Assembly (NCBI RefSeq): GCF_024611995.1
Contig: NZ_CP102509.1
Coordinates: 7,874,001 to 7,938,000, forward strand
Origin: Streptomyces sp. NBC_00162
GTDB lineage: Bacteria; Actinomycetota; Actinomycetes; Streptomycetales; Streptomycetaceae
Reading direction: 5' to 3'
Length of the DNA stretch: 64,000 bases
The position numbers were made by a program, and so were the translations under genes. The first letter of the stretch is position 1. The number at the start of each line of letters is the position of its first letter. Of this stretch, positions 22,000 through 38,765 are shown one piece after another. The notes under the pieces were generated by a model. That model saw only the letters and a program-made list of their open reading frames with translations. It was not told the origin of the DNA and made no database searches.

Positions 22000-22611
22000 T
22001 CAGACCGCCGGGAAGACCGGGGCGATCCCCAGGGTGGGCGCGATCGCCTGCCAGATCGTCGACCGGGCCGTGGCCAGGTCGACCCGGGGGTCCTCCAGCA
22101 TCAGCCGGATGCCGAGGCCGTCGCACAGGGCCAGCACCAACGTGCTGACCGCGGCGACGTCGCAGTCGGTGAACTCGCCGGACCGGATGCCCCGTTCCAC
22201 GACTCCGCCGACCCACGCGTGCAGCTGGTCGTAGAGGTCGACGGCGAGGTGCCGGGCCGTACCGTCGCGCAGCGCGCGCACCCAGAGCTCCTGCCAGAGC
22301 TTCCAGTCCTGGTGGAGCTCCGCGTCCGTGGGCAGCATGCTGTGCACGATGCGGGCCAGGACGACCGCGGCCGGGTCCGTATCGGTGTCGCTGCCGGTGT
22401 CCGTACCGGTCTTGGCGAAGGAGTGCGTCATCGCCTCGGCGAAGAGCTTCTCGCGAGTGTCGAAGTGGTAGTGCAACAGGGCCTTCGAGACGCCCGCGTG
22501 CTCGGCGACCTTGCGCATGCTGACGTGCTCGAAACCGATGTCGGCGATCACTTCGCACGCTGCCGTGAGGATTCGCTCACGCGTTTCGAGTGCGCGCTCG
22601 GCCTTGGTCAC
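22000..22611 (-). CDS. TetR-family transcriptional regulator of the catabolic island
   Basis: Regulator of 203 aa. An N-terminal helix-turn-helix spans about 10-58 (ETRERILTAACEVIADIGFEHVSMRKVAEHAGVS with recognition-helix part KALLHYHFDTREKLF). The C-terminal ligand/dimer domain contains WQELWVRALRDG and LVLALCDGLGIRLMLEDP, resembling BetI/TetR_C_6-type domains. The GTG start at 22611 follows GGGAG by about nine bases. It is the distal gene of the leftward operon that begins at 30199, so it is the natural candidate to bind the operators at 30431-30503. An amine or acyl-CoA inducer is my inference. Confidence 0.92.
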   Translation of the reverse strand: MTKAERALETRERILTAACEVIADIGFEHVSMRKVAEHAGVSKALLHYHFDTREKLFAEAMTHSFAKTGTDTGSDTDTDPAAVVLARIVHSMLPTDAELHQDWKLWQELWVRALRDGTARHLAVDLYDQLHAWVGGVVERGIRSGEFTDCDVAAVSTLVLALCDGLGIRLMLEDPRVDLATARSTIWQAIAPTLGIAPVFPAV

Positions 22612-22743
22612 GTTGGCTGCTCCCCGTGTCGGCGCCCGTTGGGTCGGGTGAGTGGGTGATGGGAAAGGCCCCGGCGGCCCCGCCCGCCGGACCACCATCC
22701 TCGCGCATGGGGCTTCCGGGCTCCGGCCGTCGGGGGACCGCGG

Positions 22744-23604
22744 TCAGGGATAGGTGTGGAAACCCCGGCCGGTCTTGCGGCCGAGCAGGCCCGCGTCCAC
22801 CATCCGGGCCAGCAGCGGCGGCGGGGCGTACAGCGGCTCCCGGTACTCCGCGTACATCGACCGGGCGATGGCCTGGACGGTGTCCAGTCCGATGAGGTCG
22901 GCCAGGGCCAGCGGCCCGAGCGGGTGGGCGCAGCCCAGGGTCATGCCCCGGTCGATGTCCTCGGCCGACGCGGCCTGGGACTCGGCCATCCGCACCGCGG
23001 CCAGCAGGTACGGCACGAGGAGCGCGTTCACGACGAATCCCGCCCGGTCCCGGGCGCGGACGACCTGCTTGCCCAGGACGTCGGAGGCGAACTCCCGTGC
23101 CCGCCGGGCGGTCTCCTCGGCGGTGAGCAGGGACGGCACCAGCTCGACGAGGGCGAGCACGGGGACGGGGTTGAAGAAGTGCAGGCCGACCACGTGTTCC
23201 GGCCGTGAGGTGGCTGCCGCCAGCCGGATGACCGGGATGGAGGAGGTATTCGTCGCCAGCACGGCGTCCCTGCGTTGCACCGTCGCGTCGAGCCGGGCGA
23301 AGACCTCCAGCTTCGCCCGCTCGTCCTCGGCCACCGCTTCGACGACGAGGTCGCGGTCCGCCATCCGGGCCATGTCCGTGGTCACCACGATCCGCCCCAC
23401 TGCGGTGTCCCGTTCGGCGTCGGTCAGCTTTCCGGCGGCCGCGGCCCGTGCCAGGGAGCGGGTTATCCGCTCCAGGCCGGCGTCCGCGGCCGTCCGGCTG
23501 GTCTCCACCACCACGACGTCCCGCCCGGCGAGGGCGCAGACCTCGGCGATACCGGAGCCCATCAGACCGCATCCCACGACCCCGACCCGTTCGACATCGG
23601 ACAT
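22744..23604 (-). CDS. 3-hydroxyacyl-CoA (3-hydroxybutyryl-CoA) dehydrogenase
   Basis: NAD-dependent enzyme of 286 aa that oxidises 3-hydroxyacyl-CoA to 3-ketoacyl-CoA. The Rossmann motif is VGVVGCGLMGSGIAEV (7-22). The catalytic region has ATNTSSIPV and GLHFFNPVPVLALVE with the active-site His, and the C-terminal domain carries RDRAGFVVNALLVPYLLAAVRM and MTLGCAHPLGPLALADLIGLD. GAAGGGA lies eight bases upstream of the ATG. It sits downstream of two acyl-CoA dehydrogenases. No enoyl-CoA hydratase or thiolase is in the same operon, so either these are supplied elsewhere or the pathway is not ordinary beta-oxidation. Confidence 0.94.
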   Translation of the reverse strand: MSDVERVGVVGCGLMGSGIAEVCALAGRDVVVVETSRTAADAGLERITRSLARAAAAGKLTDAERDTAVGRIVVTTDMARMADRDLVVEAVAEDERAKLEVFARLDATVQRRDAVLATNTSSIPVIRLAAATSRPEHVVGLHFFNPVPVLALVELVPSLLTAEETARRAREFASDVLGKQVVRARDRAGFVVNALLVPYLLAAVRMAESQAASAEDIDRGMTLGCAHPLGPLALADLIGLDTVQAIARSMYAEYREPLYAPPPLLARMVDAGLLGRKTGRGFHTYP

Positions 23605-23687: not shown

Positions 23688-24860
23688 TCACACGGACGAC
23701 GGCATCTGCAGCACGCCCGTGCCGCGCTTGACGAGTTCGCCCGCGACGATCAGGCGCTGGATCTCGGAGGTGCCCTCCCAGATGCGGTCGACGCGCAGTT
23801 CGCGGTAGAGACGCTCGACGGGGTACGAGCGGTCGTAGCCGCGGCCACCGAAGATCTGCAGGCACCGGTCGATGACCCGGCCGGACGCCTCGCTCGCCGA
23901 CAGCTTGGCGATGGCCGCCTTGGCATGCAGCGTCTTGCGGTCGACCCGGCCCTCGTCGACCTCCCAGGCGACCTGGTGGGTGTAGGCGCGGTTGACGGCG
24001 ATGTCGACGGCGCAGTCGGCGAGCATGCCCTGGATCAGCTGGAAGTCGGCGATGGAGGAGCCGAACTGGCGGCGCTCCACCGCCCAGTCGCGGGCCAGCT
24101 CCAGGGCCCGCTCGGCGGCGCCGATCGTCCGCGCGGCGATCATCAGCCGTTCCTCGGTGAACCAGGAGCGGGTGATGTCGTAACCGTTGCCCACCTCCCC
24201 GAGCACGGCATCCGCGGGGACGTGCACCTCGGTGAAGGTGAACTCGGGGTGCTCGTAGACGAACGTGTGCATCCAGCGGGGCACCCGGGTCATCTCGATG
24301 CCCGGCGTGTCCTTGTCGACGAGGAACAGCGTCGGGGCCCCCTCCTCCCCGGCGGCGGCGAGCACGATCATGAAGTCGGCGTGGTCGCCGACGGTGACGA
24401 ACCACTTCTCGCCGTTCAGCACCCAGCCGTCGGCGGTCCGGGTCGCCGTGGTCCGCAGGCTCTGCGGGTCGGAGCCGGCCTCCGGCTCGCTCACCGCGTA
24501 GCAGTCGCGGCGCCGCCCCCGGATCACCGGGACGAGGTACCGCTCGCGCTGCTCCGGCGTGCAGAAGGACAACGCGTTGGCCGGACGCCACACCATGTCC
24601 CACAGGGCGCCGGTGAGCCGTCCGAGCTCCGCCTGGACCGTGACCTGCTCCAGGATGGTGAGGCCGGCGCCGCCCCACTCCGCCGGCATGTTGACCGCCT
24701 GAAGGCCGCTGTCGAGGACGGCGTCGCGGATCTCGGTGTGGGCCTGCGGGGGCAGGCCGTTGTTCTCCTCGCAGTCGAGCTCGTACTTCATGATGAACTC
24801 GGTGAGCGCGCGCGCCGAGTCCCTGAGCTCTTCCTGACGGGCGGTGAGACGGAAGTCCAT
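23688..24860 (-). CDS. Acyl-CoA dehydrogenase (paralogue 1)
   Basis: FAD enzyme of 390 aa removing two hydrogens from an acyl-CoA. Family segments: NMPAEWGGAGLTILEQ, YAVSEPEAGSDPQSLRTTATR, GWVLNGEKWFVTVGDHADF, RQFGSSIADFQLIQGML, LQIFGGRGYDRSYPVER and RIWEGTSEIQRL, the last holding the presumed catalytic Glu. It is followed by the hydroxyacyl-CoA dehydrogenase and preceded, 50 bases upstream, by a same-length paralogue. Parts of the two genes are near-identical at DNA level while other parts diverge. The N-terminal motif DFRLTARQEELRDSA is conserved between the pair. Confidence 0.95.
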   Translation of the reverse strand: MDFRLTARQEELRDSARALTEFIMKYELDCEENNGLPPQAHTEIRDAVLDSGLQAVNMPAEWGGAGLTILEQVTVQAELGRLTGALWDMVWRPANALSFCTPEQRERYLVPVIRGRRRDCYAVSEPEAGSDPQSLRTTATRTADGWVLNGEKWFVTVGDHADFMIVLAAAGEEGAPTLFLVDKDTPGIEMTRVPRWMHTFVYEHPEFTFTEVHVPADAVLGEVGNGYDITRSWFTEERLMIAARTIGAAERALELARDWAVERRQFGSSIADFQLIQGMLADCAVDIAVNRAYTHQVAWEVDEGRVDRKTLHAKAAIAKLSASEASGRVIDRCLQIFGGRGYDRSYPVERLYRELRVDRIWEGTSEIQRLIVAGELVKRGTGVLQMPSSV

Positions 24861-24910: not shown

Positions 24911-26083
24911 TCAGGAGCCGGGGAGCGCGAGGGCCCGGGTGCCGCGCTTGATCAGCTCGTTGGCGATGATCAGGCGCTGGATCTCGGAGGTGCCCTCCCA
25001 GATGCGGTCGACGCGCAGTTCGCGGTACATGCGCTCGACGGGGTACGAGCGGTCGTAGCCCCGGCCGCCGAAGATCTGTACGCACCGGTCGATGACCCGT
25101 CCGGCGGCCTCGCTCGCCGCGAGCTTCGCCGTCGACGCCTTGGCGTGCAGGGTCTTGGGGTCGGTGTGCGGCTGGTCGGCTTCCCAGGCGACCTGGTGGG
25201 TGTAGGCGCGGTTGACGGCGATGTCGACGGCGCAGTCGGCGAGCATGCCCTGGATCAGCTGGAAGTCGGCGATGGGGGAGCCGAACTGGCGGCGCTCCAC
25301 CGCCCAGTCGCGGGCGAGTTCCAGGGCCCGTTCGGCGGCGCCGACGGTCCGGGCGGCGATCATCAGCCGCTCGTCGGTGAACCACTCCTTGGTCAGCTCG
25401 TAGCCGTTGCCGACGCCGCCGAGCACGTCCTCGTCGGCGACGAAGACGTCGGCGAAGGTGAATTCGGGGTGCCCGTTCACCGCGGAGTGCATGAACCGGG
25501 GGACGCGCGTCATCTCGACACCCGGTGCCTGCTTGTCCACGAAGAACAGCGTCGCGGCCCGCTCGGGGCCCGCATCGGCCTGCACCAGCAGGAAGTCGGC
25601 GATGTCCCCGCAGGTCACGAACCACTTCTCGCCACTCAGGAGCCAGCCGCCCTCGGTGCGGGTCGCGGTACTCGTGCACGAGCCGGGGTCGGAGCCCGCA
25701 CCGGGTTCGGTGACCGCGAACGCGTCGAACCGCTCGCCCCGGATGACGGGCAGGAGGTACTTCTCCCGCTGTGCCGCGGTGCCGTGGGCCAGGACGTTCG
25801 CGGGCCGCCAGGGGATGTCCCAGAGGCAGTTGGTGACCTTGCCGAACTCCTCCTCGACGATGACCTGGTCCAGCAGGGACAGGCCGGCTCCGCCCCACTC
25901 GGCGGGCATGTTGATCGCGTAGACGCCCGCGTCGATGGCGGCGCGGGTCAGTTCGCGGACCGTCTCGGCGGGCAGCGGGCCGCCCGCCTCCTCGGACTGG
26001 TCCTCGTACCTCATCAGCAGCCGCGTGTAGGCGGCGGCGCGGGCCTTGAGGTCGGCCTGCTCGGGTGTGTAGCGGAAGTCCAT
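24911..26083 (-). CDS. Acyl-CoA dehydrogenase (paralogue 2)
   Basis: Tandem paralogue of the neighbouring gene, also 390 aa. It has NMPAEWGGAGLSLLDQ, FAVTEPGAGSDPGSCTSTATR, GWLLSGEKWFVTCGDIADF, VQIFGGRGYDRSYPVER and RIWEGTSEIQRLI. Substrate-side segments differ (LVQADAGPERAATLFFVDK; HSAVNGHPEFTFADVF), so the pair may act on two chain lengths or form a heteromer. GGAGA lies about eight bases before the ATG. It follows the acyl-CoA synthetase by about 100 bases. Confidence 0.95.
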   Translation of the reverse strand: MDFRYTPEQADLKARAAAYTRLLMRYEDQSEEAGGPLPAETVRELTRAAIDAGVYAINMPAEWGGAGLSLLDQVIVEEEFGKVTNCLWDIPWRPANVLAHGTAAQREKYLLPVIRGERFDAFAVTEPGAGSDPGSCTSTATRTEGGWLLSGEKWFVTCGDIADFLLVQADAGPERAATLFFVDKQAPGVEMTRVPRFMHSAVNGHPEFTFADVFVADEDVLGGVGNGYELTKEWFTDERLMIAARTVGAAERALELARDWAVERRQFGSPIADFQLIQGMLADCAVDIAVNRAYTHQVAWEADQPHTDPKTLHAKASTAKLAASEAAGRVIDRCVQIFGGRGYDRSYPVERMYRELRVDRIWEGTSEIQRLIIANELIKRGTRALALPGS

Positions 26084-26186: not shown

Positions 26187-28262
26187 TCAGCCCAGGACGG
26201 CCCGTGCGTCCAGGGCCAGGGCGCCGTCCGGACGCACCAGCAGGGGATTGACCTCCAGCTCGGCGATCTCCGGATGTGCGGCGGCCACCGCGGTGATGCG
26301 TTCGATGACGGCGGCGGCGGCGGCCACGTCGACGGCCGGCCGCCCGCGGACGCCCGCCAGAAGCGCGGCGGTCCGCAGCCCGCGCAGCAACTCCTCGGCC
26401 CGCCGGGCCGGTACGGGCGCCAGCGCGAAGGCGACGTCGCGCAGGGTCTCGGTGAGGACGCCGCCGAGCCCGACCATCGCCACCGGTCCGAACCGGGGGT
26501 CTCGGTTCACGCCCACGATCAGCTCGATGCCGTCCGAGAGGTCGGCCATCGCCTCGACCGAGTAGGCGGGGGCGCCGAGCCGGGCGTGCATGTCCCGGTA
26601 CGCGGCGAGGAGCGCGTCCCGGCCGGCCAGCCGCAGCGCTACGCCGCCCGCGTCGGACTTGTGCAGGAGGTGCAGGGCCTTGAGCACGTACGGGCCGTCG
26701 AACTCCCCTGCCGCGGCCAGCAGTCCGGCCTCGTCGGTGATCTCGCGCGCCGGCGGGAACGGCACCCCGGCGGCGCCGAGCAGCGCTCGCACCCCGTGGT
26801 ACCCGGCGTCCCGCAGCGGCGCGGCCGGAGCGGGCAGCGCGGGGAGCTGCGGTGTGCCGCCCGCCGCCCGGACGGTCATCGCCGACAGGGCGCGGGCGGC
26901 GTCCTCGGTGGCGGCGAAGACCGGTATCCCGGCTTCGGCCAGCACCCGGCAGCTCGGCGACTGCGGATACATGGACTGCACGACCATCGGCTTCGGCGCG
27001 ACCGCGAGGTGCGTGACGATCTTCTCGGCGGCCCGCGTCTCGCCCTCGGCGAGCACGGAGCCGCCGGCCGGGCTGCCGCCCAGGCCGCCCTCGGAAGCGG
27101 CGTACCCGCCGAAGTAGCCCGTCATCAGGACGGCGTCGACCTCGTCGGCGGCGAGGAGTTCCGCGACCGTGTCGGCGTACGAGAGGGGCTGCTGCTCGCC
27201 CATCCCCGCCAGGTCGACCGGATTGCCGACCGCGGACTGCTGCCACAGTACGGTCCGCAGCCGCTCCTGCGTGGCCGCGGCGAGTTCCGGTACGTCGAGC
27301 CCGGCGTCCTCGGCGGCGTCGGCCGCGATCGCACCGTGGCCGCCGCCGTCGGTGAAGACCGCGGTCCGGCTTCCTTTCGTACGCGGTCCCGGCCGGGCGC
27401 TCACGGCCGCCAGTACCACCGTCATCTCCCGTGGCGTACGGACGAGTTCCACGCCCGCGTCGCGGCAGGCGGCGGCCACCACGTCGGCCGAGGTGGTGAG
27501 CGCCCCGGTGTGCGACTGGGCGCTGCGGGCGGACGCGGAGCCCCGCCCGGCGGTGAGCAGGACCACGGGCTTGCCCGCCGCGGCGGCGGCCCGGGCGAAG
27601 GCCCTGCCGTCGCCGAAGTCCTCGGCGTACACGGCGATCGCCGTGGTGGCCTCGTGGCGGGCGCAGTCCTCGACGAGGTCGACGAGGGTGACGTCGGCCT
27701 GGTTGCCGAGGGAGACGAACCGGGAGAAGCCCAGGCCGTGCGGAGCGCCGCGGAGCTGGAGTTCGAGGGCGAGGTTGCCGCTCTGGCTCAGCAGGGCGAC
27801 GCCGCCGGGAGCGAAGCGGTCCGAGGCGAGGTAGAGCTCGGTCGTGTTGTCGGCGATGCCCAGGCAGTTGGGTCCGACGAGGACGGCTCCGGCTTCCCGG
27901 ACGCGTGCGACGACCGCGCGTTGCCGGGCCAGTCCCGCCGGGCCGGCCTCGGCGAAACCCGCGGTGATGCCGACGATCGCCTTCGCCCCGCAGGCCAGGG
28001 CGTCCTCGACGGCGGCCTCGAAACCGTCGCCCGGGACGGAGATCACCACCAGTTCGACGGGTTCGCCGATCGCGGCGAGGGACGGGGCGGCCGGTCTGCC
28101 GAGGACGGTGCCGCCGCGCCGGTTGACCAGGTGCACCGGCCGCCGCCCGTCGGCGCGCAACGCCTGGGAGGCCACCGCGTGGCCGTACTTCGCCGGGTCG
28201 TCGCTGGCTCCGACCACGGCGACGGAGCGGGGGTCGAAGAGAGCGGTCAGATCGCGTGCCAT
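26187..28262 (-). CDS. ADP-forming acyl-CoA synthetase (acetate--CoA ligase family)
   Basis: Fused alpha-beta enzyme of 691 aa that activates a carboxylic acid with ATP and CoA through a phospho-enzyme. The CoA-binding domain starts LFDPRSVAVVGASDDPAKYGH; a succinyl-CoA-ligase-like domain includes GPNCLGI and LLSQSGNLALEL, and SAQSHTGAL (about 253-261) holds the presumed phospho-His. The C-terminal ATP-grasp part has YVLKALHLLHKSDAGGV and FGPVAMVGLGG, LEVNPLLVRPDG. It starts one base after the ferredoxin stop, so both are in one transcript. It probably feeds the acid produced by the aldehyde dehydrogenase into CoA-dependent steps; the acid is unknown. Confidence 0.93.
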   Translation of the reverse strand: MARDLTALFDPRSVAVVGASDDPAKYGHAVASQALRADGRRPVHLVNRRGGTVLGRPAAPSLAAIGEPVELVVISVPGDGFEAAVEDALACGAKAIVGITAGFAEAGPAGLARQRAVVARVREAGAVLVGPNCLGIADNTTELYLASDRFAPGGVALLSQSGNLALELQLRGAPHGLGFSRFVSLGNQADVTLVDLVEDCARHEATTAIAVYAEDFGDGRAFARAAAAAGKPVVLLTAGRGSASARSAQSHTGALTTSADVVAAACRDAGVELVRTPREMTVVLAAVSARPGPRTKGSRTAVFTDGGGHGAIAADAAEDAGLDVPELAAATQERLRTVLWQQSAVGNPVDLAGMGEQQPLSYADTVAELLAADEVDAVLMTGYFGGYAASEGGLGGSPAGGSVLAEGETRAAEKIVTHLAVAPKPMVVQSMYPQSPSCRVLAEAGIPVFAATEDAARALSAMTVRAAGGTPQLPALPAPAAPLRDAGYHGVRALLGAAGVPFPPAREITDEAGLLAAAGEFDGPYVLKALHLLHKSDAGGVALRLAGRDALLAAYRDMHARLGAPAYSVEAMADLSDGIELIVGVNRDPRFGPVAMVGLGGVLTETLRDVAFALAPVPARRAEELLRGLRTAALLAGVRGRPAVDVAAAAAVIERITAVAAAHPEIAELEVNPLLVRPDGALALDARAVLG

Positions 28263-28263: not shown

Positions 28264-28455
28264 TCACTTCTCCACTCGGAGGGCGGAGTTGGGGCAGCTC
28301 TCGGCGCAGGCGCGCGCCGCTTCCTCGGTGCCGGACGGGACGGTGAGGGCGATGACCCTCGCGAAGCCCCATTCGTCGAGTTCGACCAGGTCGGGTGCGT
28401 GTTCCTGACACAGCCCGTAGCCCTGGCAGCGGGTGGAGTCCAGCAGGAGTTTCAC
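28264..28455 (-). CDS. Small ferredoxin, 3Fe-4S type
   Basis: Ferredoxin of 63 aa. Cysteines are spaced C-x5-C in RCQGYGLCQEHAPD and C-x3-C-P in ACAESCPNSAL, the layout of actinobacterial single-cluster 3Fe-4S ferredoxins that serve oxygenases. The GTG start overlaps the stop of the NuoF-like gene (GTGA), and the acyl-CoA synthetase starts right after it. It is placed to carry electrons from the NuoF-like flavoprotein, plausibly to the Rieske oxygenase encoded divergently. Transfer to or from the acyl-CoA dehydrogenases is an alternative. Confidence 0.9.
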   Translation of the reverse strand: MKLLLDSTRCQGYGLCQEHAPDLVELDEWGFARVIALTVPSGTEEAARACAESCPNSALRVEK

Positions 28456-29762
28456 GGTGTTCCTTTCAGGGCGGGCAACGGGGTGCGGGACGAGGCCGCG
28501 TCGGCGACCTCCGGTACGGCCACGGCGAGGCGGCGCCCGTGGACGCCCGCGGGCGGGGCGGTGGCGAAGGCAGCGATGCAGCCGGGGCACGGCCCGCCGA
28601 GGTGCGACCGGACGAGATCGGGGAAGGCGAGCAGGAGGCTGCCCGCGGTGCCCGCGGCGGCGTCGAGCAGGCCGCAGGCCCCGCGCCCGGGCAGGCCTCG
28701 GGACCACCGGTCCAGGTGGGCAAGGGTGTCGGGGGCGGCCGTGCCCGCGCAGAGCGCGTGCACGGCGTCGCGGATCGCCGCCGTGCCCGACACACAGACG
28801 CCGCACTGCCGTGCGCTCTCGGCCGCGAGGTGGCCGATGGCGTCCGCGGCGGTGCTCACCGGGCAGGCGCCGACGGCGAGGAAGCGGATCGCTCCGCAGC
28901 CCAGCGCGGTGCCCGCCGCGGCGAGTGCGTCGGGGTCGAGGGGGAGGTCCAGGGCCCGGGCGTCGACGAGTCCGCCGAACAGCCCGCCCATCAGGGCCCC
29001 GGCCGCGTCCGGGGTGCCGTGAGCCGCCGCCAGGGTGCGCAGGGGGACGCCGTACGGGACTTCGGTGAGCACGGGCGCCCCCCTCCCGCCGGACAGCGTC
29101 ACCAGGGTGGCGCGGGCGATCCGGTCGCGCAGGTCGGGGCGTGTCGCGGTGAGGGCGATCCGGGCAAGGGTCTCGACGTTGGAGACCAGGGTCGGCGCGC
29201 CGCCGACCCCCTGCTCGAAGGGGCGGGGCGGCTTGGCGGTGGGCAGCGCCGGTCCGCCGTCGATCCGGCGGACGACCGCGCTCTCCTCACCGGCGACGTA
29301 GGTGTGGGCGGTCTCCACGACCTCGATGGGCAGGTGCGGCTCCCGTTCGGCGAGGGCCCGGCGGACGCGTGCACCCGCTTCCGGGTCCGAGAGGTAGACG
29401 TAGCCGCGGACGGCGCCGGTCACCGAGGCGGCCCGGACGAGGCCGTCGAGGACCAGATGGGGCCGGGCCTGCAGCAGCCAGCGGTCCTTGACCGAGCCCG
29501 GCTCGCCCTCCTCGCCGTTCGCCACCACCACCGGGACGCCGCCGCGCTCGCGGACGGCGCGCAGCTTGACGGCGGCCGGGAAGCCGGCCCCGCCGCGACC
29601 GCGCAGACCGGATGCGGCGAGGTGGTGCAGGAGCTCGTCCGGGCCGGTGGCGTCGGCGTAGCCGCCGGTGGCGCGGTAGGCATCGGCACTCTCCGTCACG
29701 TGGGGTGCCGCTCCGAGTACGGAGCCCGGCGACGGTGCCGTGGGGAATCGGATGGTGGTCAT
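28452..29762 (-). CDS. NuoF-like NAD(P)H/FMN flavoprotein with altered Fe-S motif
   Basis: Protein of 436 aa resembling the NADH-binding subunit NuoF of complex I but standing without NuoE or NuoG. GLRGRGGAGFPAAVKL and ANGEEGEPGSVKDRWLL form the FMN/NADH site, and EVPYGVPLRTL is the SLBB region. In the Fe-S region the usual C-x2-C-x2-C becomes QCGVCVSG, so the third Cys is Gly; another Cys follows in GRGACGLLDA, and an extra CPGC pair sits near the C-terminus. Coupled to the ferredoxin downstream (GTGA) and the 146-aa gene upstream (ATGA). Likely an NADH:ferredoxin reductase for the island. Confidence 0.85.
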   Translation of the reverse strand: MTTIRFPTAPSPGSVLGAAPHVTESADAYRATGGYADATGPDELLHHLAASGLRGRGGAGFPAAVKLRAVRERGGVPVVVANGEEGEPGSVKDRWLLQARPHLVLDGLVRAASVTGAVRGYVYLSDPEAGARVRRALAEREPHLPIEVVETAHTYVAGEESAVVRRIDGGPALPTAKPPRPFEQGVGGAPTLVSNVETLARIALTATRPDLRDRIARATLVTLSGGRGAPVLTEVPYGVPLRTLAAAHGTPDAAGALMGGLFGGLVDARALDLPLDPDALAAAGTALGCGAIRFLAVGACPVSTAADAIGHLAAESARQCGVCVSGTAAIRDAVHALCAGTAAPDTLAHLDRWSRGLPGRGACGLLDAAAGTAGSLLLAFPDLVRSHLGGPCPGCIAAFATAPPAGVHGRRLAVAVPEVADAASSRTPLPALKGTP

Positions 29763-30199
29763 CGGCTGCTCCCTGTCCGGGGGTCGGTGCGCAGGATCCG
29801 TACGGCGCCTTCGAGTGCGCTGCGGTCCCTGGCGGTGCGGCCGTATCCCGTTCCCGGGAGGCCGATGAGCATGCGGTGGTGGTCGAGGACCACCTCTCCG
29901 GCGAGGAGGGCGGCCGCGCGGATGCCCGGCTCAGGGCGGGCGGCCACGGCGGTCACCAGCTCGGTGACCTCGGCCAGGTAGCGGAGCCAGCTGTGGCGGC
30001 TGCCCCGCAGGATCAGGCGCTCCACGCGGCGCCGCTCGGCGGCCGCCAGCTCGGCCGTCAGCTCTGCCGTCCGTGCTGCCTGTGCGGACTCCGAGCGGGG
30101 ACGGTGCGAGGAGGCGCGCAGGGCGGCGACCGCTGCGGGCAGTTCCCGCTCGGGTTCGGGAGTGAGCCCGAGCCAGTCCAGACGCCGACGACCGCTCAT
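29759..30199 (-). CDS. Hypothetical protein, 146 aa, first gene of the leftward operon
   Basis: No family recognised. The ATG at 30199 has GGAGG seven bases upstream; a longer frame adds 40 Pro/Arg-rich residues and is unlikely. The product is basic, Ala/Arg/Glu-rich and predicted helical (about 20-75: ELPAAVAALRASSH, then TAELTAELAAAERRRVERLIL). A conserved-looking centre reads SRHSWLRYLAEVTELV. There are no cysteines or membrane segments. Its stop overlaps the start of the NuoF-like gene (ATGA), so it may be an assembly or partner subunit of that flavoprotein. The function remains open. Confidence 0.75.
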   Translation of the reverse strand: MSGRRRLDWLGLTPEPERELPAAVAALRASSHRPRSESAQAARTAELTAELAAAERRRVERLILRGSRHSWLRYLAEVTELVTAVAARPEPGIRAAALLAGEVVLDHHRMLIGLPGTGYGRTARDRSALEGAVRILRTDPRTGSSR

Positions 30200-30430
30200 G
30201 CGTGCCTCCGGGAGGGATGGGGTGCCGTGACCGACCGGGTCGGGTGACGGGAGCCGAGGGCGGGGGAGACGGGGATGCCCAGGGGCTCGCCGCAGGGGGA
30301 CGCCGGGGGCGTGCGGCAAGGGATGGAGGGGGTGCGGGCCCGGGCGGGTGCCAGGGGGGCGGGCTGCGTCCGGCCAGACAAAAGGCCCAGAAGTGGAGAT
30401 ACGCCGGTGCAGCGACGAGAATTACGCTAG

Positions 30431-30446: not shown

Positions 30447-30483
30447 CGTACAAGTCTTGACCCGGCGGAAATCAGCCAGCAAT

Positions 30484-30503: not shown

Positions 30504-30605
30504 CAAGGTCTCGGCGTCCGCCCCGGCCTGCTGCCCGCTGCTGGGTCGTCTCGACATCGATCGCCGAAACCGATCGCCGCACCGCCGGCACGGAGGAGTC
30601 ACCCG

Positions 30606-31860: not shown

Positions 31861-32991
31861 ATGTCCCCCGAGGCACACTCCCTGTCCAGACGCTCCTTCC
31901 TCCGCGCCGGCACCGCCGCGGCCCTCGGCCTCTCGGTGGCCGGCTGCGGATTCGCATCCGAAGACGACCCGGCCGGCAAGGCCGCCGAGGAGACGCCGAT
32001 CGACGTCAAGGTCGACGGAGACCTGGTCTATTTCAACTGGGCCGACTTCGTCGATCCGGCCGTCTTCGAAGGCTTCGAGAAGGAGTACGGCGTCAAGGTC
32101 GTCCAGTCCAACTTCGACTCCATGGAAGGCATGGCCGCCAAGCTCAACGCCGGAAACCGCTACGACATCATCTTCCCCACGGCGAAGTGGTCGGAGCGGC
32201 TCGCCGCCGGAGGCAAGCTGCGCACGATCGACCACGCCCGGCTGAAGAACGCCGAAGCCGTGTTCGGCGGTTACGACTACTTCGCCGACCCCTGGTACGA
32301 CCCCGGCTCCCGGCACACCGTCCCCTTCACCATGTACAAGACCGGCATCGGCTGGCGCAGGGACCGGCTCGGCGACCTGACCGGATCCTGGGACGACCTG
32401 TGGAACGACAAGGCCAAGGGCAAGGTCTTCGTCCTCGACGACCGCGACGAGGTGCTCGGCATGGGCGCGCTCAAGCTCGGCCTCGACGTCACCACCGGCG
32501 ACCCGAACGACCTCGCACGGATCACCGACACCCTGCGCTCGCTCCGCCCCCGCCTGCGCGGCTTCTCGAGCGACAGCTACAACAACCTGCTCAACGGCAA
32601 CGCCGACATGACCCAGGCATGGAGCGGGGACATGGCCGCCATGCTCGCCCAGGCCGAGGACCCCTCCGTCTTCGGCTTCGAGGTCGCCCGGGAGGGCGCC
32701 CCCGTCAACTCCGACTGCTACGCCATCCCCGCCGACGCGCAACACCCCGGCACCGCGATGCTCTTCATCGACTACATGCTCCGCCCGGAGAACGTGAAGA
32801 AGAACATCGAGTACATCGGCTACCCGATGCCGGTCCGCGGCAGCGAGGACACCTACAGCGCGCTCGTGGAGCCGTTCCCCCAGTGCCTGGTGACCACGGA
32901 CGACCTCAAGGACGACCGCTACTTCCGCAACGGCACCGCGAAGGGCGAACAGCACCGCGACGCCGCCTGGACCGATGTGAAGGCCGGCTGA
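31861..32991 (+). CDS. Polyamine-type ABC transporter substrate-binding protein (PotD/F-like)
   Basis: Exported lipoprotein of 376 aa: twin-arginine motif SRRSFLRA (9-16) and lipobox SVAGC with Cys29, a Tat-type lipoprotein. The mature domain begins with VYFNWADFVDPAVFEGFEKEYGVKVV, as in PotD/PotF, and has YDIIFPTAKWSERLAAGGKL, TVPFTMYKTGIGWRRDRLGD and AWSGDMAAMLAQAED. It should capture a small cationic amine. GAGAGGA precedes the ATG by about seven bases. First of four transporter genes; the next starts two bases after its stop. Confidence 0.94.
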   Translation: MSPEAHSLSRRSFLRAGTAAALGLSVAGCGFASEDDPAGKAAEETPIDVKVDGDLVYFNWADFVDPAVFEGFEKEYGVKVVQSNFDSMEGMAAKLNAGNRYDIIFPTAKWSERLAAGGKLRTIDHARLKNAEAVFGGYDYFADPWYDPGSRHTVPFTMYKTGIGWRRDRLGDLTGSWDDLWNDKAKGKVFVLDDRDEVLGMGALKLGLDVTTGDPNDLARITDTLRSLRPRLRGFSSDSYNNLLNGNADMTQAWSGDMAAMLAQAEDPSVFGFEVAREGAPVNSDCYAIPADAQHPGTAMLFIDYMLRPENVKKNIEYIGYPMPVRGSEDTYSALVEPFPQCLVTTDDLKDDRYFRNGTAKGEQHRDAAWTDVKAG

Positions 32992-32992
32992 C

Positions 32993-33898
32993 ATGGCACG
33001 ACGCAACCGATCCGGCACGGCCCGTCCGCCGGGCGCGGGACCGGCCGTCTCGGGGGCGAGGCTGTGGACCTGGCTCATGCTCCCCGGCACCCTCTGGATG
33101 ACCGGGTTCCTCCTCGCCTCCCTCCTCCTGGTGGCCACCCTCGCGTTCGGCACCACCGACCCGCTCGGAAACCCGCGCTTCGGGCTCAACACCGACAACT
33201 TCGCCGCACTGGCGGACCCGGCCTACCGCACCGTCCTGCTGCGCTCCCTCGGCTACGCGCTGATCACCTGCCTCATCTGCCTGGCCGTGGCCTACCCGGT
33301 CGCCTACGCCATCGCGCTGCACGGCGGACGCTTCAAGAACCTGCTGATCGCCGCGATCGTCGTGCCGTTCTTCGCCAACTACCTGGTGCGCATGTACGGC
33401 TGGTCCGTCGTCCTCTCCGACGACGGGCCGCTGCTGAAGGCCCTGCGCGCCATCGGCATCGCCGACGACGGCACCAAGATCCTCCAGACCGGGCCGGGCG
33501 TCATCGCGGGACTCGTCTACGGCTTCGTCGTCTTCATGATCATCCCGCTGTACGCGGCCATGGAACGCATGGACACCTCGCTCATCGAGGCCGGACGCGA
33601 CCTCTACGGCGGCCCCTTGCGGACCTTCCTCTTCGTCACCGTCCCCGCCACCCGGCAGGGCGCGGCCGCCGGCTGCGTCCTCGTATTCCTGCCCGCCATG
33701 GGCGACTTCGTCAGCGCCCAGCTCATGGGAGGCCCCGACCAGATCATGATCGGCAACCTGATCCAGGACAAGTTCTTCCAGGGCCAGAACTGGCCGCTCG
33801 GCTCGGCCCTGACCATGCTGCTGATGGCGGTCCTGCTGTTCGGGATGCTGGGCTATCTGCGGCGCACCCGCAAGGACGAGGCGGAGGCGGTCCGATGA
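32993..33898 (+). CDS. Polyamine-type ABC permease (PotB-like)
   Basis: Membrane permease of 301 aa with six hydrophobic helices between about 24 and 290. The ABC coupling loop is MDTSLIEAGRDLYGGPLRTFLFVTVPAT, and PFFANYLVRMYGWSVVLSDDGP and LPAMGDFVSAQLMGGPDQIMIGN are typical of PotB/PotH. Its stop overlaps the start of the second permease (ATGA). It pairs with that permease to form the membrane pore of the importer. Confidence 0.95.
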   Translation: MARRNRSGTARPPGAGPAVSGARLWTWLMLPGTLWMTGFLLASLLLVATLAFGTTDPLGNPRFGLNTDNFAALADPAYRTVLLRSLGYALITCLICLAVAYPVAYAIALHGGRFKNLLIAAIVVPFFANYLVRMYGWSVVLSDDGPLLKALRAIGIADDGTKILQTGPGVIAGLVYGFVVFMIIPLYAAMERMDTSLIEAGRDLYGGPLRTFLFVTVPATRQGAAAGCVLVFLPAMGDFVSAQLMGGPDQIMIGNLIQDKFFQGQNWPLGSALTMLLMAVLLFGMLGYLRRTRKDEAEAVR

Positions 33899-34830
33899 CC
33901 CTGCGCCCCGCCGCCCAGGCCGACCTCCGGCCGCCGGCCGACCCGGCCGAACACCGCGGGCTCCCGGCCGCCGACGGGACACGGGCGAGGCCCGCCCGCC
34001 GGCCGCGCCGCCGCCGACGCGGGGCCGACCGCCGGCCCCGTTTCGCCATCGCCGTCACCGCCGCCTTCTTCGCGCTGCTCTACCTCCCCGTCGTCGTCGT
34101 CGTCCTGTTCTCCTTCAACTCGCAGAAGTCCCTCACCGTCTTCGAGGACGTCAGCCTCCGCTGGTACAGCGCGTTCCTCCGCGACGACGTACTCATCGAC
34201 TCGCTCGGGATGAGCCTGCGGGTGTCCCTGGTCGCCATGGCCGGCTCGCTCGTCCTCGGCGTGGCCCTGGCCCTTGGCCTCGTACGCAACCGGAGCCGCC
34301 TCGGCTCCTTCGCCGGCCTGGTCATGCTCGTCCCGCTGATCACCCCGGAGATCGTCACCGGCGTCGCGGCGATGATGCTCTTCAAGGGCCTCGGCATCAC
34401 CCTGTCCACCACCACCGTGATGCTCGCCGAGATCACCTTCTCCATCTCCTACGTGACGGTCATCCTGCGCTCCCGCATCGCCGCCCTCAACCCGGAGGTC
34501 GAGGAGGCCGCGATGGACCTCGGCGCCACCCGCCGGCAGGCCCTGTTCCTGGTCACACTGCCCGCGCTGCTCCCCAGCATCCTCGCGTCCGGGGTGCTGA
34601 TCTTCGCCCTGGTCTTCGACGACTTCGTCCTCGCCTACTTCACCACCGGCGTCGACCCGCAGCCGCTGTCCGTCCGCATCTACTCGGCGATCAGGTTCGG
34701 CGTCCAGCCCACCATCAACGCCGTCGGCACCCTGATGCTCGTCGGATCCATCGGCCTCATCGTGCTCGCGCTCGCCATCCCGCGCCTGTTCGGCCGCCGC
34801 GGCGGCCTCGATCTTCTCTCAGGGAAGTGA
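33895..34830 (+). CDS. Polyamine-type ABC permease (PotC-like)
   Basis: Second permease of 311 aa. A long Arg/Pro/Ala-rich cytoplasmic leader (about 1-45) precedes six helices. The coupling loop is ALNPEVEEAAMDLGATRRQALFLVTLPALLPSI, and FALVFDDFVLAYFTTGVDPQPLSVRIYS is characteristic of PotC/PotI. The ATG overlaps the upstream stop. Next comes the ATPase gene with its ATG five bases after this stop. Confidence 0.95.
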   Translation: MTLRPAAQADLRPPADPAEHRGLPAADGTRARPARRPRRRRRGADRRPRFAIAVTAAFFALLYLPVVVVVLFSFNSQKSLTVFEDVSLRWYSAFLRDDVLIDSLGMSLRVSLVAMAGSLVLGVALALGLVRNRSRLGSFAGLVMLVPLITPEIVTGVAAMMLFKGLGITLSTTTVMLAEITFSISYVTVILRSRIAALNPEVEEAAMDLGATRRQALFLVTLPALLPSILASGVLIFALVFDDFVLAYFTTGVDPQPLSVRIYSAIRFGVQPTINAVGTLMLVGSIGLIVLALAIPRLFGRRGGLDLLSGK

Positions 34831-34835
34831 CCCCC

Positions 34836-35981
34836 ATGCAGGACCCGCACCCGCACCCGCAGCCGCAGCCGCAGCCGCAGCCTCACGCTCACCCCGACCC
34901 TCAGCCGCACCCGAATCCCGCCGTCCGGCTCGACCGGGTCAGCAAGCAGTACCCCAACTCCGACGCCTACGCCGTCCACGACGTCACCCTCGACGTCGCC
35001 CCGGGCGAGTTCTTCTCCCTCCTCGGCCCGTCCGGCTGCGGCAAGACCACCCTGCTGCGGATGACCGGCGGCTTCGCCGACCCCACGGAAGGCAGCGTCC
35101 TGCTCGACGGCCAGGACGTCACCGGCCTCCCGCCCAACAAGCGCAACGTCAACACCGTCTTCCAGAGCTACGCCCTCTTCGACCACCTCTCACTGGCCGA
35201 CAACGTGGCCTTCGGCCTCAAGCGCAAGGGCGTGGCCCGCCCCGAGATCCGCGAACGGGTCGCCGACATGCTCGACCTCGTCCAGCTCGGGGGACTGGCC
35301 GGCCGCAAGCCGCCCACGCTCTCCGGCGGCCAGCGACAGCGCGTCGCCCTCGCCCGCGCCCTGGTCAACCGGCCGCAAGTCCTGCTGCTGGACGAGCCGC
35401 TGGCCGCGCTCGACCTCAAACTCCGCCGCCGGATGCAGGTCGAGCTCAAGCAGATCCAGCGCGAGGTCGGCATCACCTTCGTCTTCGTCACCCACGACCA
35501 GGACGAAGCCCTGACCATGTCCGACCGCCTCGCGGTCATGAACGAGGGACGCATCGAGCAGTGCGGCACGCCCGAGGACGTCTACGAGCGCCCGACGAGC
35601 AGCTTCGTGGCCTCCTTCATGGGCACCTCCAACCTCGTCCCCGGCACCTACCGCTCGGGCCGGGTCGTCCTCGACCAGGGCCCCGCCCTGCCCGTCGGCC
35701 CCCGGTCCGGCGTCCCCGACGGCAGCCGGGTCAGCCTCTCCATCCGCCCCGAGAAGATCTGGCTCTCCGACTTCGAACCGGGCATGGCCCAGGTGAGCGG
35801 AGTCGTCCGGGAGACCGTCTACTGCGGCCCGACCACCACCTACCTCATCGAACTGGCCCCCGGAGTCACGGTGTCCGTGCTGGAGCAGAACACCGTCCGC
35901 TCCCGCATGGAGGACCGCTGGAGCGGCGGCGAGCAGGTCGAGATCGGCTGGAAGCCCGAGCACTGCCTGGTCCTCGACTGA
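34836..35981 (+). CDS. Polyamine-type ABC ATPase (PotA-like) with His/Pro/Gln-rich N-terminus
   Basis: ATPase of 381 aa. Walker A GPSGCGKTT, Q-loop FQSYALFDHL, signature LSGGQRQRVALARAL, Walker B LLLDEPLAALD and the H-loop in FVTHDQDEALTM are all present; a C-terminal TOBE domain follows (SLSIRPEKIWL, VVRETVYCGPTTTY). The first about 25 residues are a repeat of Pro, Gln and His (alternating PHPQ/PQPQ units) encoded by a CAGCCG run, absent from ordinary PotA. I choose the ATG at 34836, nine bases after AGGGAAG; a GTG at 34827 lies against that site. Confidence 0.94.
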   Translation: MQDPHPHPQPQPQPQPHAHPDPQPHPNPAVRLDRVSKQYPNSDAYAVHDVTLDVAPGEFFSLLGPSGCGKTTLLRMTGGFADPTEGSVLLDGQDVTGLPPNKRNVNTVFQSYALFDHLSLADNVAFGLKRKGVARPEIRERVADMLDLVQLGGLAGRKPPTLSGGQRQRVALARALVNRPQVLLLDEPLAALDLKLRRRMQVELKQIQREVGITFVFVTHDQDEALTMSDRLAVMNEGRIEQCGTPEDVYERPTSSFVASFMGTSNLVPGTYRSGRVVLDQGPALPVGPRSGVPDGSRVSLSIRPEKIWLSDFEPGMAQVSGVVRETVYCGPTTTYLIELAPGVTVSVLEQNTVRSRMEDRWSGGEQVEIGWKPEHCLVLD

Positions 35982-36055: not shown

Positions 36056-37372
36056 ATGAACCACGACGTCATCGTGCTCGGCGCCGGACTGGCCGGTCTC
36101 GCCGCCGCGCGCGACCTGGCCGCAGGCGGGGCCGACGTCCTCGTCGTCGAGGCCCGCGACCGGGTCGGCGGACGTGTCGAACAGACCGCCCTCCCCGACG
36201 GCCGGCTGGTCCAGCTCGGCGGGGAGGTGGTGGGCCGGGCCCACACCGCCTACACCGCCCTCGCCGCGGAACTGGGCCTCACCCTGGTCCCCAGCTACGT
36301 CGCCGAGCCCGGCGCCCTCGTCCGCGCCACCCCCGAAGGAGTCGGTGCCGGAGACCCGCCCCACTGGTTCGGGGGTGGCGACGAAGCCTGCCACGCCAAG
36401 GTCACCGCCGCCTTCACCGCGCTCGCCGCCACCGTCGATGCGGCCGACCCCTGGTCCCACCCCGAGGCCACGCCCCTCGACCGGCTCTCCGTCGGCGACT
36501 GGCTGCGCTCGCAGGGAGCCACCCAGGCCGTCGTACGTCTCTGGGAGATCGGCCAACTGGCCCTCGCCGACGGCGCTTGCGAACGGACCTCGCTGCTCGC
36601 CGCCCTCCGCAAGCACGCCGCCGTACCCGGCACGGGCCACTACGAGTACGAGGCCTGGGAAGGCCTGCGATGCGCCGAGGGATCGGCGACCGTGGCCCTG
36701 CGCATGGCCGAGGCCCTCGGCGGGCGGATACGTACGGGCTCACCCGTCGAGGCGGTCACGGTACGGCGACCAGGCCGCTGCTCCGTACGCCTGGCGGGCG
36801 GCGAGACCCTGACCGCCGACGCCGTGGTCAGCGCGCTCCCGGTCGGCCCGCTCCGCTCGGTCGCCGTCACCGGAGTCTCCGACGAACGCCTCGCCGCACT
36901 GCATCGCCAACGCCACGCCCTCGCGGCCAAGTTCACCGCCGCGTACGACAGACCCTTCTGGCGCGACCGCGGCCTCAGCGGCCTCTCCGAATGCGAAGGT
37001 GTCCTCGGCAGCACCTGGCCGCAGAGCGAAGGCATCCTCTCCGCCCTGGTCCCGCCCGAGCGCTACGGCGTCCTGCTCGGCATGCCCGCTCCCCTGCGCA
37101 CCGCCGAACTGCTGGCCGACATCGCGCGCCTCTACGGCGACGAGGCGCACCATCCGCTCGCCACGTACGTACGCCTGTGGGGCACCGACCCGTGGACCCA
37201 GGGGTACGTCACCCAGTGGACCCCCGGTGACGTCATGGCCGTCGGCCCCCGGCACGGCACCCACGAACCCCCCTTCTACGTCTGCGGATCCGACCAGTGG
37301 GTGGCCGGCTACATGGAAGGCGCCGTACGCACCGGACGCGAGGCCGCCAAGGAGGCGCTGAGCCGTGGCTGA
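36056..37372 (+). CDS. Flavin-dependent monoamine/polyamine oxidase
   Basis: FAD enzyme of 438 aa oxidising an amine to an imine/aldehyde. The N-terminal dinucleotide motif is VIVLGAGLAGLAAARDLA, followed by VVEARDRVGGRVEQT and LGGEVVGRAHTAY. The C-terminal FAD segment is PFYVCGSDQWVAGYMEGAVRTGREAA, standard for the MAO family. It lies directly after the amine importer and its stop overlaps the start of the aldehyde dehydrogenase, so the aldehyde product is probably handed to that enzyme. GAAGGAA precedes the ATG. The exact amine is not deducible. Confidence 0.93.
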   Translation: MNHDVIVLGAGLAGLAAARDLAAGGADVLVVEARDRVGGRVEQTALPDGRLVQLGGEVVGRAHTAYTALAAELGLTLVPSYVAEPGALVRATPEGVGAGDPPHWFGGGDEACHAKVTAAFTALAATVDAADPWSHPEATPLDRLSVGDWLRSQGATQAVVRLWEIGQLALADGACERTSLLAALRKHAAVPGTGHYEYEAWEGLRCAEGSATVALRMAEALGGRIRTGSPVEAVTVRRPGRCSVRLAGGETLTADAVVSALPVGPLRSVAVTGVSDERLAALHRQRHALAAKFTAAYDRPFWRDRGLSGLSECEGVLGSTWPQSEGILSALVPPERYGVLLGMPAPLRTAELLADIARLYGDEAHHPLATYVRLWGTDPWTQGYVTQWTPGDVMAVGPRHGTHEPPFYVCGSDQWVAGYMEGAVRTGREAAKEALSRG

Positions 37373-38765
37373 CACCCTGTACAACCACATCGGGGGAGTG
37401 GACCGCCCCGCCGCCTCGGGCGCGACGATGGCCCTGACCGACCCCGCCACCGGCCGGGTGCACCGCCACGCACCGCGCTCCGGCCCGGCCGACACGGACG
37501 AGGCCTGCGCCGCGGCGGCAGCGGCGTACGCGCACTGGTCCACGACCACCCCGGCCGCCCGGCAGCGCGCCCTGCTCGGCATCGCCGACGCCATCGAGGC
37601 GCACACGGACGCCTTCGTGGCCGCCGAAACCGGGGACACCGGCAAGCCTGCCGACCAGTTCAGGAACGAGGAACTGCCCGCGATCGTCGACACCGTCCGC
37701 TACTTCGCCGGAGCCGCGCGGAACCTCCCGGGCGCCGCCGCGGCCGAGTACACCGAGGGCCGCACCTCCCTGCTGCGCCGCGAACCGGTGGGCGTCTGCG
37801 CCCAGATCACCCCTTGGAACTACCCGCTGATGATGGCCGCATGGAAGATCGCCCCGGCGATCGCCGCCGGAAACACCACCGTGCTCAAGCCCGCGGACAC
37901 CACCCCCTCCTCGTCCGCGCTGCTGGCCCAGATCGCCGCGGGACACCTGCCGCCGGGCGTGCTGAACCTCGTCTGCGGCGACCGAGACACGGGCCGGGCC
38001 CTCACCGCCCACCCGGCGGTCGCCCTGATCGCCGTCACCGGCAGCGTCCGCGCCGGCCGGGAGATCGCGGCGGCCGCCGCGGCCGGCCTCAAGCGGGTCC
38101 ACCTGGAACTCGGCGGCAACGCCCCCGTCCTGGTCCACGAGGACGTGGACGTGGAGGCCACCGCCGCAGCCCTCGCCGCCGTCGCCTACTACAACGCCGG
38201 CCAGGACTGCACCGCGCCCACCCGGCTCCTGGTCCACCGCCGGATCCACGACGTCTTCCTCGCGGCCTTCGCCGCCGAAGCGGCACGGCTCCGTACCGGC
38301 GTCGACTTCGGGCCCCTCAACAACGCGGCCCAACTCGCCTCGGTGCAGGCCCTGCTGGACCGCCTGCCGGCCCACGCCGAGATCGTCACCGGCGGCAGCC
38401 GACTCCCGCGCCCCGGCTTCTTCCACGAGCCCACGGTGGTCGCGGGTGTCCGCCAGGACGACGAGATCGTGCAGGAGGAGATCTTCGGCCCGGTGGTGAC
38501 CGTCCAGCCCTTCGCCGACGAGGCCGAGGCTCTGTGCCTCGCCAACGGCGTGCGCTTCGGCCTGGCCGCGAGCGTGTGGACCACCGACCACGACCGCGCG
38601 ATGCGTGCCACCCGCGCCCTCCACACCGGCATCGTCTGGGTGAACACCCACGGCACCACCGTCTCCGAGATGCCGCATGGCGGAGTCAAGCACTCCGGCT
38701 ACGGCAGTGACCTCTCCCTGTCCGGCCTCCTGGACTACACCCAGGCCAAACACGTCATGCTGTGA
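37365..38765 (+). CDS. NAD(P)-dependent aldehyde dehydrogenase (aminobutyraldehyde/betaine-aldehyde type)
   Basis: Enzyme of 466 aa oxidising an aldehyde to the acid. Catalytic residues: Asn152 in ITPWNYPL, Glu248 in HLELGGNAP and Cys282 in NAGQDCTAPTRLLV; the GQDCTA form is seen in aminoaldehyde dehydrogenases. AGGAGG lies nine bases before the GTG start, inside the end of the oxidase gene. It completes the amine-to-acid module of the island. The acid could be activated by the ADP-forming acyl-CoA synthetase of the divergent operon. Confidence 0.95.
   Translation: MADTLYNHIGGVDRPAASGATMALTDPATGRVHRHAPRSGPADTDEACAAAAAAYAHWSTTTPAARQRALLGIADAIEAHTDAFVAAETGDTGKPADQFRNEELPAIVDTVRYFAGAARNLPGAAAAEYTEGRTSLLRREPVGVCAQITPWNYPLMMAAWKIAPAIAAGNTTVLKPADTTPSSSALLAQIAAGHLPPGVLNLVCGDRDTGRALTAHPAVALIAVTGSVRAGREIAAAAAAGLKRVHLELGGNAPVLVHEDVDVEATAAALAAVAYYNAGQDCTAPTRLLVHRRIHDVFLAAFAAEAARLRTGVDFGPLNNAAQLASVQALLDRLPAHAEIVTGGSRLPRPGFFHEPTVVAGVRQDDEIVQEEIFGPVVTVQPFADEAEALCLANGVRFGLAASVWTTDHDRAMRATRALHTGIVWVNTHGTTVSEMPHGGVKHSGYGSDLSLSGLLDYTQAKHVML

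Follow-up and report, generated by a model that had tools for sequence, protein, structure and literature searches.

Several described systems lie close to the locus studied here. CntA/CntB (YeaW/YeaX) is a carnitine monooxygenase whose CntA component has Rieske domains, a 2-His motif, Tyr203 and the bridging Glu205. The E. coli importer PotD–PotABC has a four-subunit layout and binds the ammonium groups of its ligand through carboxylates, and the route from putrescine to gamma-aminobutyric acid (GABA) uses putrescine oxidase and aminobutyraldehyde dehydrogenase. In the bbu gamma-butyrobetaine cluster of Emergencia timonensis, as the text excerpts of the report describe it, a gamma-amino acid is activated with CoA and an acyl-CoA dehydrogenase (ACAD)-family enzyme, BbuA, removes the amine from a gamma-aminoacyl-CoA ester, with crotonyl-CoA as product (PMC8364193). 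We analysed a 64,000-nucleotide stretch of Streptomyces sp. NBC_00162 (contig NZ_CP102509.1, positions 7,874,001 to 7,938,000; hereafter the window, whose own numbering is used) and found at 22000–38765 an island of 15 complete genes in two divergent arms, which joins a Rieske oxygenase, a Pot-type importer, an amine oxidase and CoA-dependent enzymes. On balance, we read this island as a single catabolic unit, inducible by its substrate, that acts on a polyamine-type amine in modified, N-alkylated form. Its features are given below, each arm in order outward from the promoter.

Left arm:
29759–30199, minus strand: o146, a 146-residue all-helical protein, first gene of the left arm and signature of the island (no Pfam or NCBIfam match)
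28452–29762, minus strand: NuoF-like flavoprotein, presumed NADH:ferredoxin reductase (Complex1_51K and NADH_4Fe-4S); the gene overlaps the ferredoxin gene
28264–28455, minus strand: 63-residue single-cluster ferredoxin with the motif CxxYxxC...CP (Fer4_15)
26187–28262, minus strand: ADP-forming acyl-CoA synthetase of the acetate–CoA ligase superfamily (CoA_binding_2, Succ_CoA_lig, ATP-grasp_5; 323 bits as acetate–CoA ligase alpha, below the cut-off of 567)
24911–26083, minus strand: acyl-CoA dehydrogenase 1 (ACAD1), marker of a wider module (domain match; separate clade)
23688–24860, minus strand: acyl-CoA dehydrogenase 2 (ACAD2; Pfam ACAD domains, 69% identical to ACAD1)
22744–23604, minus strand: hydroxyacyl-CoA dehydrogenase (HADH) of the 3-hydroxybutyryl-CoA type, an apparently dispensable member (NF005875, 468.6 bits against a cut-off of 319)
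22000–22611, minus strand: TetR-family regulator whose C-terminal domain is of BetI type (PF13977 and PF00440, both above cut-off), likely to repress both arms

Shared promoter region:
30431–30446, no strand: operator 1, the perfect palindrome CTGACCGATCGGTCAG (cross-locus conservation, shuffles, genome scan)
30457–30462, plus strand: conserved TTGAC, a -35-like box between the operators
30488–30503, no strand: operator 2, CTGTCCAATCGGTCAG, 57 bp start-to-start from operator 1 (same evidence as operator 1)

Right arm:
30606–31793, plus strand: Rieske non-haem iron oxygenase, presumed N-dealkylating monooxygenase (Rieske and Ring_hydroxyl_A domains; best PDB match carnitine monooxygenase CntA)
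31861–32991, plus strand: PotD-type solute-binding protein (PotD/PotF among the best PDB matches)
32993–33898, plus strand: PotB-type permease (BPD_transp_1; best NCBIfam match PotB, 214.9 bits, below the cut-off of 348)
33895–34830, plus strand: PotC-type permease (BPD_transp_1; assigned by position)
34827–35981, plus strand: PotA-type ATPase (TIGR01187, 373 bits against a cut-off of 355.6)
36056–37372, plus strand: putrescine-oxidase-like FAD amine oxidase (PF01593; best PDB matches putrescine oxidase 2yg3–2yg7 and 3rha)
37365–38765, plus strand: aldehyde dehydrogenase of the aminobutyraldehyde dehydrogenase type (NF010000, 615.2 bits against a cut-off of 615, marginal; best PDB matches 1wnb, 6c43 and 4dal)

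The eight leftward and seven rightward genes of an original prediction, made from the letters of the sequence, were all present with the strands and ends it had given. A purine-rich stretch was seen by eye upstream of most of the 15 starts, and a filter on GC content by codon position, applied to the longest open reading frame (ORF), was passed by nine genes, the longest ORF of the other six overrunning the start. Families were assigned through Pfam, NCBIfam and PDB searches, which were mutually consistent, and all enzyme families of the island are known, o146 excepted; by curated cut-off, PotA and HADH are the two clear subfamily members. Four tested neighbours (response regulator, DUF7144, polyketide-cyclase-like and MerR genes) showed no joint inheritance with the island across the compared loci, so the boundaries first drawn for it hold.

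The whole island is conserved. Rieske orthologues of 75–80% identity were found in 7 of 60 other genomes, and among the best 80 named loci listed, 18 had orthologues of 76–93% identity while the other 62 had at most 39%, which leaves a wide gap between the orthologues and the remaining loci. We compared all 15 proteins with 25 loci by tblastn (at least 35% identity, more than 40% of the query in one stretch); L022 and L039 are one record and were counted once, giving 24 distinct loci besides the window. The original prediction had staked itself on synteny of the two arms in other genomes, and both arms stood together in these 24 other distinct loci of Streptomyces type. All 15 genes kept the same arrangement in 15 of the 24, apart from the position of TetR, whose relative sits between Rieske and PotD in L024–L027, L041, L044 and L045. 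Five loci (L023, L026, L034, L035 and L040) were interrupted by a contig or stretch end, and in four (L041, L042, L044 and L045) no intact HADH was found in the fetched stretch; a HADH match of 51 residues is left in L042, and in L044 the synthetase was seen by its later part alone. The Rieske orthologue, o146 and a close NuoF were common to the same 8 of 61 genomes, one further genome having a marginal o146 match (E 9.7e-4).

The shared promoter region tells the same story of co-inheritance. Leaving aside one duplicate, and L035, whose upstream DNA is too short, 24 of the 26 regions (window included) were testable, and all 24 had the operator pair with a start-to-start spacing of 57, or 53–54, bp. 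The pairs scored 24–31 in real regions, compared to at most 22 for the best of 104 shuffled regions, and the weakest (24) were those of Streptacidiphilus L041 and L044. None of 100 shuffled versions of the window gave as many matches at two mismatches or fewer as were observed, and in the 9.02-Mb genome the two island operators are the only zero-mismatch places for CTGWCCRATCGGTCAG. A one-mismatch site at 2931061, 3' of a GABA transaminase gene, was rejected as a regulon member, about one such site being expected by chance on a rough scaling. The TTGAC box occurs in each testable region, and a strict sigma-70 scan of 30150–30650 called no promoter. Thus, where a shared promoter with two TetR-type operators had been predicted, the operators were borne out, whereas the promoter was not called by the scan and stands on its cross-locus conservation. 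Because TetR and operators are jointly conserved, the island's own TetR protein probably binds them, and on a simple reading the repressor would sit across -35 and -10. Taken together, synteny, co-occurrence and paired operators support a single co-inherited, probably co-regulated catabolic unit, in agreement with the substrate-inducible unit proposed before.

The importer was predicted to be of polyamine type, and the PotA score, the PotD/PotF matches and the binding site agree with this. The PotD-like protein keeps D62, D194, E197 and D285 at the positions of PotD E36, D168, E171 and D257 in 26 of 26 rows (25 distinct), E36 being replaced by Asp as in PotF. In PotD these four carboxylates hold the ammonium groups of spermidine, according to the portions of the two reports that we draw on (PMC11414716, PMC8666671). 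Equivalents of W34, W229 and Y293 are also present, whereas W255 is replaced by Asn (N283) in all 26 rows, which leaves the aromatic box incomplete. Since the four ammonium-binding carboxylates are kept, the ligand, judged from these residues, is probably a two-ended cation.

The Rieske protein keeps its 2Fe-2S ligands and 2-His site (C88, H90, C108, H111, H215 and H220, invariant in 8 of 8). Like CntA, it has the bridging Glu of group V (E212, CntA E205) and the clade Va aromatic residue (Y210, CntA Y203), the latter shared by the window and all 25 island loci L021–L045; the excerpts of two papers describe this tyrosine of CntA as making a pi-cation contact to the quaternary group (PMC7948474, PMC10952381). 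The Cys pair present in CntA (C206/C209) and in Stc2 is replaced here by G213/V216. One of these papers, in the part available, calls the pair unique to some group V members, so that it is not strictly defining (PMC10952381). In the Rieske tree, E. coli YeaW, on a long branch, is not part of the starred set of 18 rows to which the window protein belongs but falls in the same half of 23 rows, and the window protein is 28.7% identical to a Klebsiella gene annotated YeaW. In a plasmid collection the first-ranked relative was at 1269247–1270308 of AP027331.1, a 1.28-Mb replicon of Sphingobium sp. TomTYG65 (37.7%). The original prediction had taken the NYLEGYH motif as a mark of enzymes acting on quaternary amines; group Va is matched by the Tyr and the bridging Glu, but the missing Cys pair and the position of YeaW make that conclusion less firm than first put.

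These residues bear on a first alternative, a dedicated route for a quaternary amine (gamma-butyrobetaine, carnitine or similar), in which the aldehyde dehydrogenase would convert trimethylaminobutyraldehyde to gamma-butyrobetaine, the ligase and ACADs would give crotonobetainyl-CoA, and the Rieske enzyme would cleave or demethylate the trimethylammonium group. The group Va pattern, the CntA match and the BetI-type domain of the regulator speak for it, as does the Comamonadaceae locus L053, where the ACAD module is accompanied by a second, GbcA-like Rieske (278 bits against a cut-off of 670) and by a GcvT-like protein. Against this, the importer is of Pot type with four ammonium-binding carboxylates, the Rieske lacks the Cys pair, the HADH is of the 3-hydroxybutyryl-CoA type and scores low as a carnitine dehydrogenase (70 bits, cut-off 592), and ready-made betaines would not call for a primary-amine oxidase. 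We consider this alternative unlikely. Degradation of an aromatic amine, with the amine oxidase and aldehyde dehydrogenase making an arylacetate whose ring the Rieske enzyme would hydroxylate, appears very improbable: ring hydroxylases belong to the Rieske family and also match in the PDB search, at lower score, but no ring-cleavage or second oxygenase subunit gene occurs among the 15, the Rieske has the bridging Glu and group Va Tyr, and the importer keeps the polyamine carboxylates.

The amine oxidase and aldehyde dehydrogenase share their families with the putrescine oxidase and aminobutyraldehyde dehydrogenase route. Together with the PotA-type importer, they point to a further alternative, an ordinary putrescine/spermidine pathway to which unrelated genes are attached. 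However, no GABA transaminase was found among the 15 genes, and the island adds a CoA ligase, ACADs, Rieske, NuoF and ferredoxin to that route. GABA breakdown needs no CoA ligase. Elsewhere in the genome, at 2924001–2944000 of contig C1 (L276), a separate cluster encodes GABA transaminase (TIGR00700, 578.3 bits against 506.65), aminobutyraldehyde dehydrogenase (740.1 against 615, higher than in the island) and PotA (368.6 against 355.6), all above cut-off. Because of this ordinary putrescine/GABA cluster, plain putrescine is an unlikely substrate, and the retention of whole arms with shared operators also argues against unrelated genes; we regard this alternative as quite improbable. Since GABA itself needs no CoA ligase, a CoA route would be explained if the nitrogen of the substrate resisted transamination, which fits the N-alkylated amine that we favour.

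The CoA enzymes suggest how such a substrate might be processed. The motif WEGTSEIQ of ACAD2, which presumably holds the catalytic Glu, was found in 21 of 22 rows, the other being gapped. The 3-hydroxybutyryl type of the HADH suggests a C4 acyl chain. As originally stated, no enoyl-CoA hydratase or thiolase occurs among the 15 genes; the relatives L209, L095 and L086 have a hydratase nearby. In CoA activation of a gamma-amino acid and in an ACAD-family enzyme the island may resemble the bbu cluster as described; that cluster differs in being oxygen-independent and in using a CoA transferase, with no Rieske reported in the part of its text seen (PMC8364193).

ACAD1 belongs to a distinct clade (21 rows from 16 genomes at 294.9 bits or more, every other row at 237.4 or less), and relatives at E <= 1e-90 were found in 33 of 396 genomes of the phylum, three of which hold the island. 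From the 30 non-island genomes we took loci in 29 by ACAD1 score, G257 being left out and four candidates per genome scored, and compared them with 20 control ACAD loci hand-picked from lower-scoring ACAD rows of the same genome set; several of the 29 are cut by contig ends. Neighbour profiles were trained on Streptomycete loci, with single queries from L095 for three extra families. The ADP-forming ligase was found at 20 of 29 module loci and 0 of 20 controls, a phytoene-desaturase-like FAD oxidoreductase at 16 and 0, TetR at 15 and 1, PotD at 10 and 0, PotB, PotC and PotA each at 9 and 0, and Rieske at 9 and 1. Aminotransferase (4/29 vs 1/20), aldehyde dehydrogenase (3/29 vs 0/20), amine oxidase (3/29 vs 0/20), hydratase (4/29 vs 6/20), HADH (2/29 vs 2/20), NuoF (0/29 vs 1/20) and o146 (1/29 vs 0/20) showed no enrichment. 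The one control with a Rieske match and a close NuoF is L252.

L209, found through the Rieske search and not one of the 29, is a one-strand run of PotD, PotB, PotC, PotA, TetR, Rieske, ligase, hydratase, ACAD and ligase, and in L213 the Rieske gene is divergent from an o146-like gene, an ACAD and a ligase. The Comamonadaceae loci L052 and L053 have two Rieskes, two FAD oxidoreductases, an ACAD and Pot genes, and L053 continues with class III aminotransferase, glutamine-synthetase-like and agmatinase-family genes and a GcvT/trimethylamine N-oxide-demethylase-like protein; the two loci may encode a methylated-polyamine pathway. In a tree of 45 Rieske proteins, a module label that we assigned ourselves required 8 changes (7–8 in bootstraps, 6 forced by starred branches) compared to a mean of 15.4 when shuffled, suggesting that Rieskes of several clades met this module. 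Such kin far beyond Streptomyces had been missed in the original prediction.

The 146-residue protein o146 was modelled with AlphaFold2 as five long helices (mean predicted local distance difference test score, pLDDT, 78.8). In L213 the o146-like gene, at 9356–9670, lies directly before the ACAD gene and scores 74 bits with the Streptomycete profile, so that o146 is not confined to Streptomycetales. Some database entries (P0005, P0014 and P0061) label relatives as TetR regulators.

No CntB/FNR-type reductase is present among the 15 genes, and the only redox carriers are the NuoF-like flavoprotein and the single-cluster ferredoxin, which the original prediction had not considered as a candidate Rieske donor. 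A complex I function was rejected for the NuoF-like protein, which scores far below the cut-off for complex I NuoF (165.5 bits against 558.65). Cysteines are usual at the NuoF 4Fe-4S site; the window protein and its relatives (23 rows) have CxxCx[SAT]G and a later RGAC, so that one of them appears lost, and a further CxxC lies close to the C-terminus in most orthologues. The ferredoxin motif CxxYxxC was kept in 21 of 23 rows (one gapped, one with Ala), and ferredoxins of the CxxYxxC...CP class are reported mostly with P450s in the part of the literature source available (PMC6237146). NuoF relatives of at least 58% identity all came from the same 8 island genomes (one over part of its length), the next being at 49%. 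Because every one of the 16 loci of NuoF relatives studied, as well as L252, has a ferredoxin-like match next to NuoF or in fusion with it, the two probably work as a pair; in L159–L162 both stand in one ORF (529–537 residues in three of the four, longer in L161), a natural fusion.

The closest non-island relatives (49% and 51%) are L147 (G054) and L252 (G418), from two genomes of one genus. As in the island, a NuoF-like gene overlaps a single-cluster ferredoxin gene (CxxFxxC) there, but the likely partner is a P450 in the same-strand run, with a further ferredoxin and thiolase-like and reductase-like genes; L252 contains, at a distance of about 14 kb, a Rieske-like ORF as well. These two loci may hold a further NuoF-driven oxygenase system. 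Motif flags missed the real P450 of L147 and were replaced by a homology check, whose outcome spoke against NuoF/ferredoxin pairs being linked to oxygenases in general. In the island the Rieske enzyme is the sole oxygenase, and with moderate confidence we prefer it as electron acceptor of the pair. Literature searches on this point found no paper in which a Rieske oxygenase is linked with a protein of NuoF type.

From the gene content and order, the conservation, the operators, the family identities and the retained site residues we infer the substrate, each reaction and their order as follows. The substrate would be a cation that ends in a primary amine and contains, at some other place, a further nitrogen that is secondary, tertiary or quaternary. 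The BetI-like TetR repressor would sit on the two operators bracketing the shared promoter until released by the amine taken up or by a product, and PotDBCA would bring the amine into the cell. The Rieske enzyme would hydroxylate the carbon next to the nitrogen that bears the substituent and thereby make the C–N bond fall apart, with electrons passing from NADH through the NuoF-like flavoprotein and the atypical ferredoxin to the Rieske cluster, the least secure step. The amine oxidase and aldehyde dehydrogenase may turn the primary amine end into a carboxylate, which the ADP-forming ligase would convert to a CoA thioester; the two ACADs would then either introduce a double bond into it or remove the amine that is left. 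The resulting enoyl-CoA, probably crotonyl-CoA, would be hydrated by a hydratase encoded elsewhere and oxidised by HADH to acetoacetyl-CoA. As in the original prediction, which did not recognise the set as a described pathway, literature searches aimed at the island turned up no description of this oxygen-using amine route.

Several observations count against this proposal. The two operator consensus forms were chosen post hoc from the sites, the shuffles being scored with the same consensus. Glu324 of putrescine oxidase takes part in diamine binding, and the amine oxidase has Gly aligned with it, in a poorly aligned stretch with a Glu adjacent. The loss of W255 was rejected as diagnostic of the importer, other Streptomyces PotD-like proteins having Ser there. 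As only 9 of the 29 module-type ACAD loci have a Rieske, the CoA branch can exist without one. In the 15 loci with more distant NuoF relatives a ferredoxin was always found, while none of them matched the P450 of L147 or the window Rieske, and the modules L209, L218 and L095 have a Rieske with no NuoF-like match nearby. The last two points also favour an alternative for the electron supply, in which NuoF and ferredoxin serve the ACADs or another acceptor and the Rieske reductase comes from elsewhere; NuoF, ferredoxin, ligase and ACADs lie together on the left arm, and the Rieske on the right. However, ACADs normally pass electrons to the electron-transferring flavoprotein, and the two closest outside pairs stand in a run with a P450, one of them (L252) with a Rieske-like ORF as well. 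We therefore hold this alternative possible but doubtful, and keep the Rieske as preferred acceptor. A broader proposal, a phylum-wide oxygen-dependent route for N-alkylated polyamines with a NuoF/ferredoxin-driven Rieske, BbuA-like removal of the amine by an ACAD to crotonyl-CoA and o146 as a dedicated accessory factor, is put forward as speculative and improbable as a whole.

The island merits experiment for its combination of genes, its phylum-wide kin and its possible unusual donor. That Rieskes from separate clades have repeatedly come together with Pot importers and one type of ACAD suggests a general, unnamed logic of amine catabolism that reaches from Actinomycetota into Comamonadaceae. 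Should the Rieske enzyme indeed draw its electrons from the NuoF/ferredoxin pair, this would add a class to the electron donors known for such oxygenases. Since the set is conserved, all-or-none and probably inducible, its binding protein and repressor could be screened for ligands, which would lead directly to its compound.

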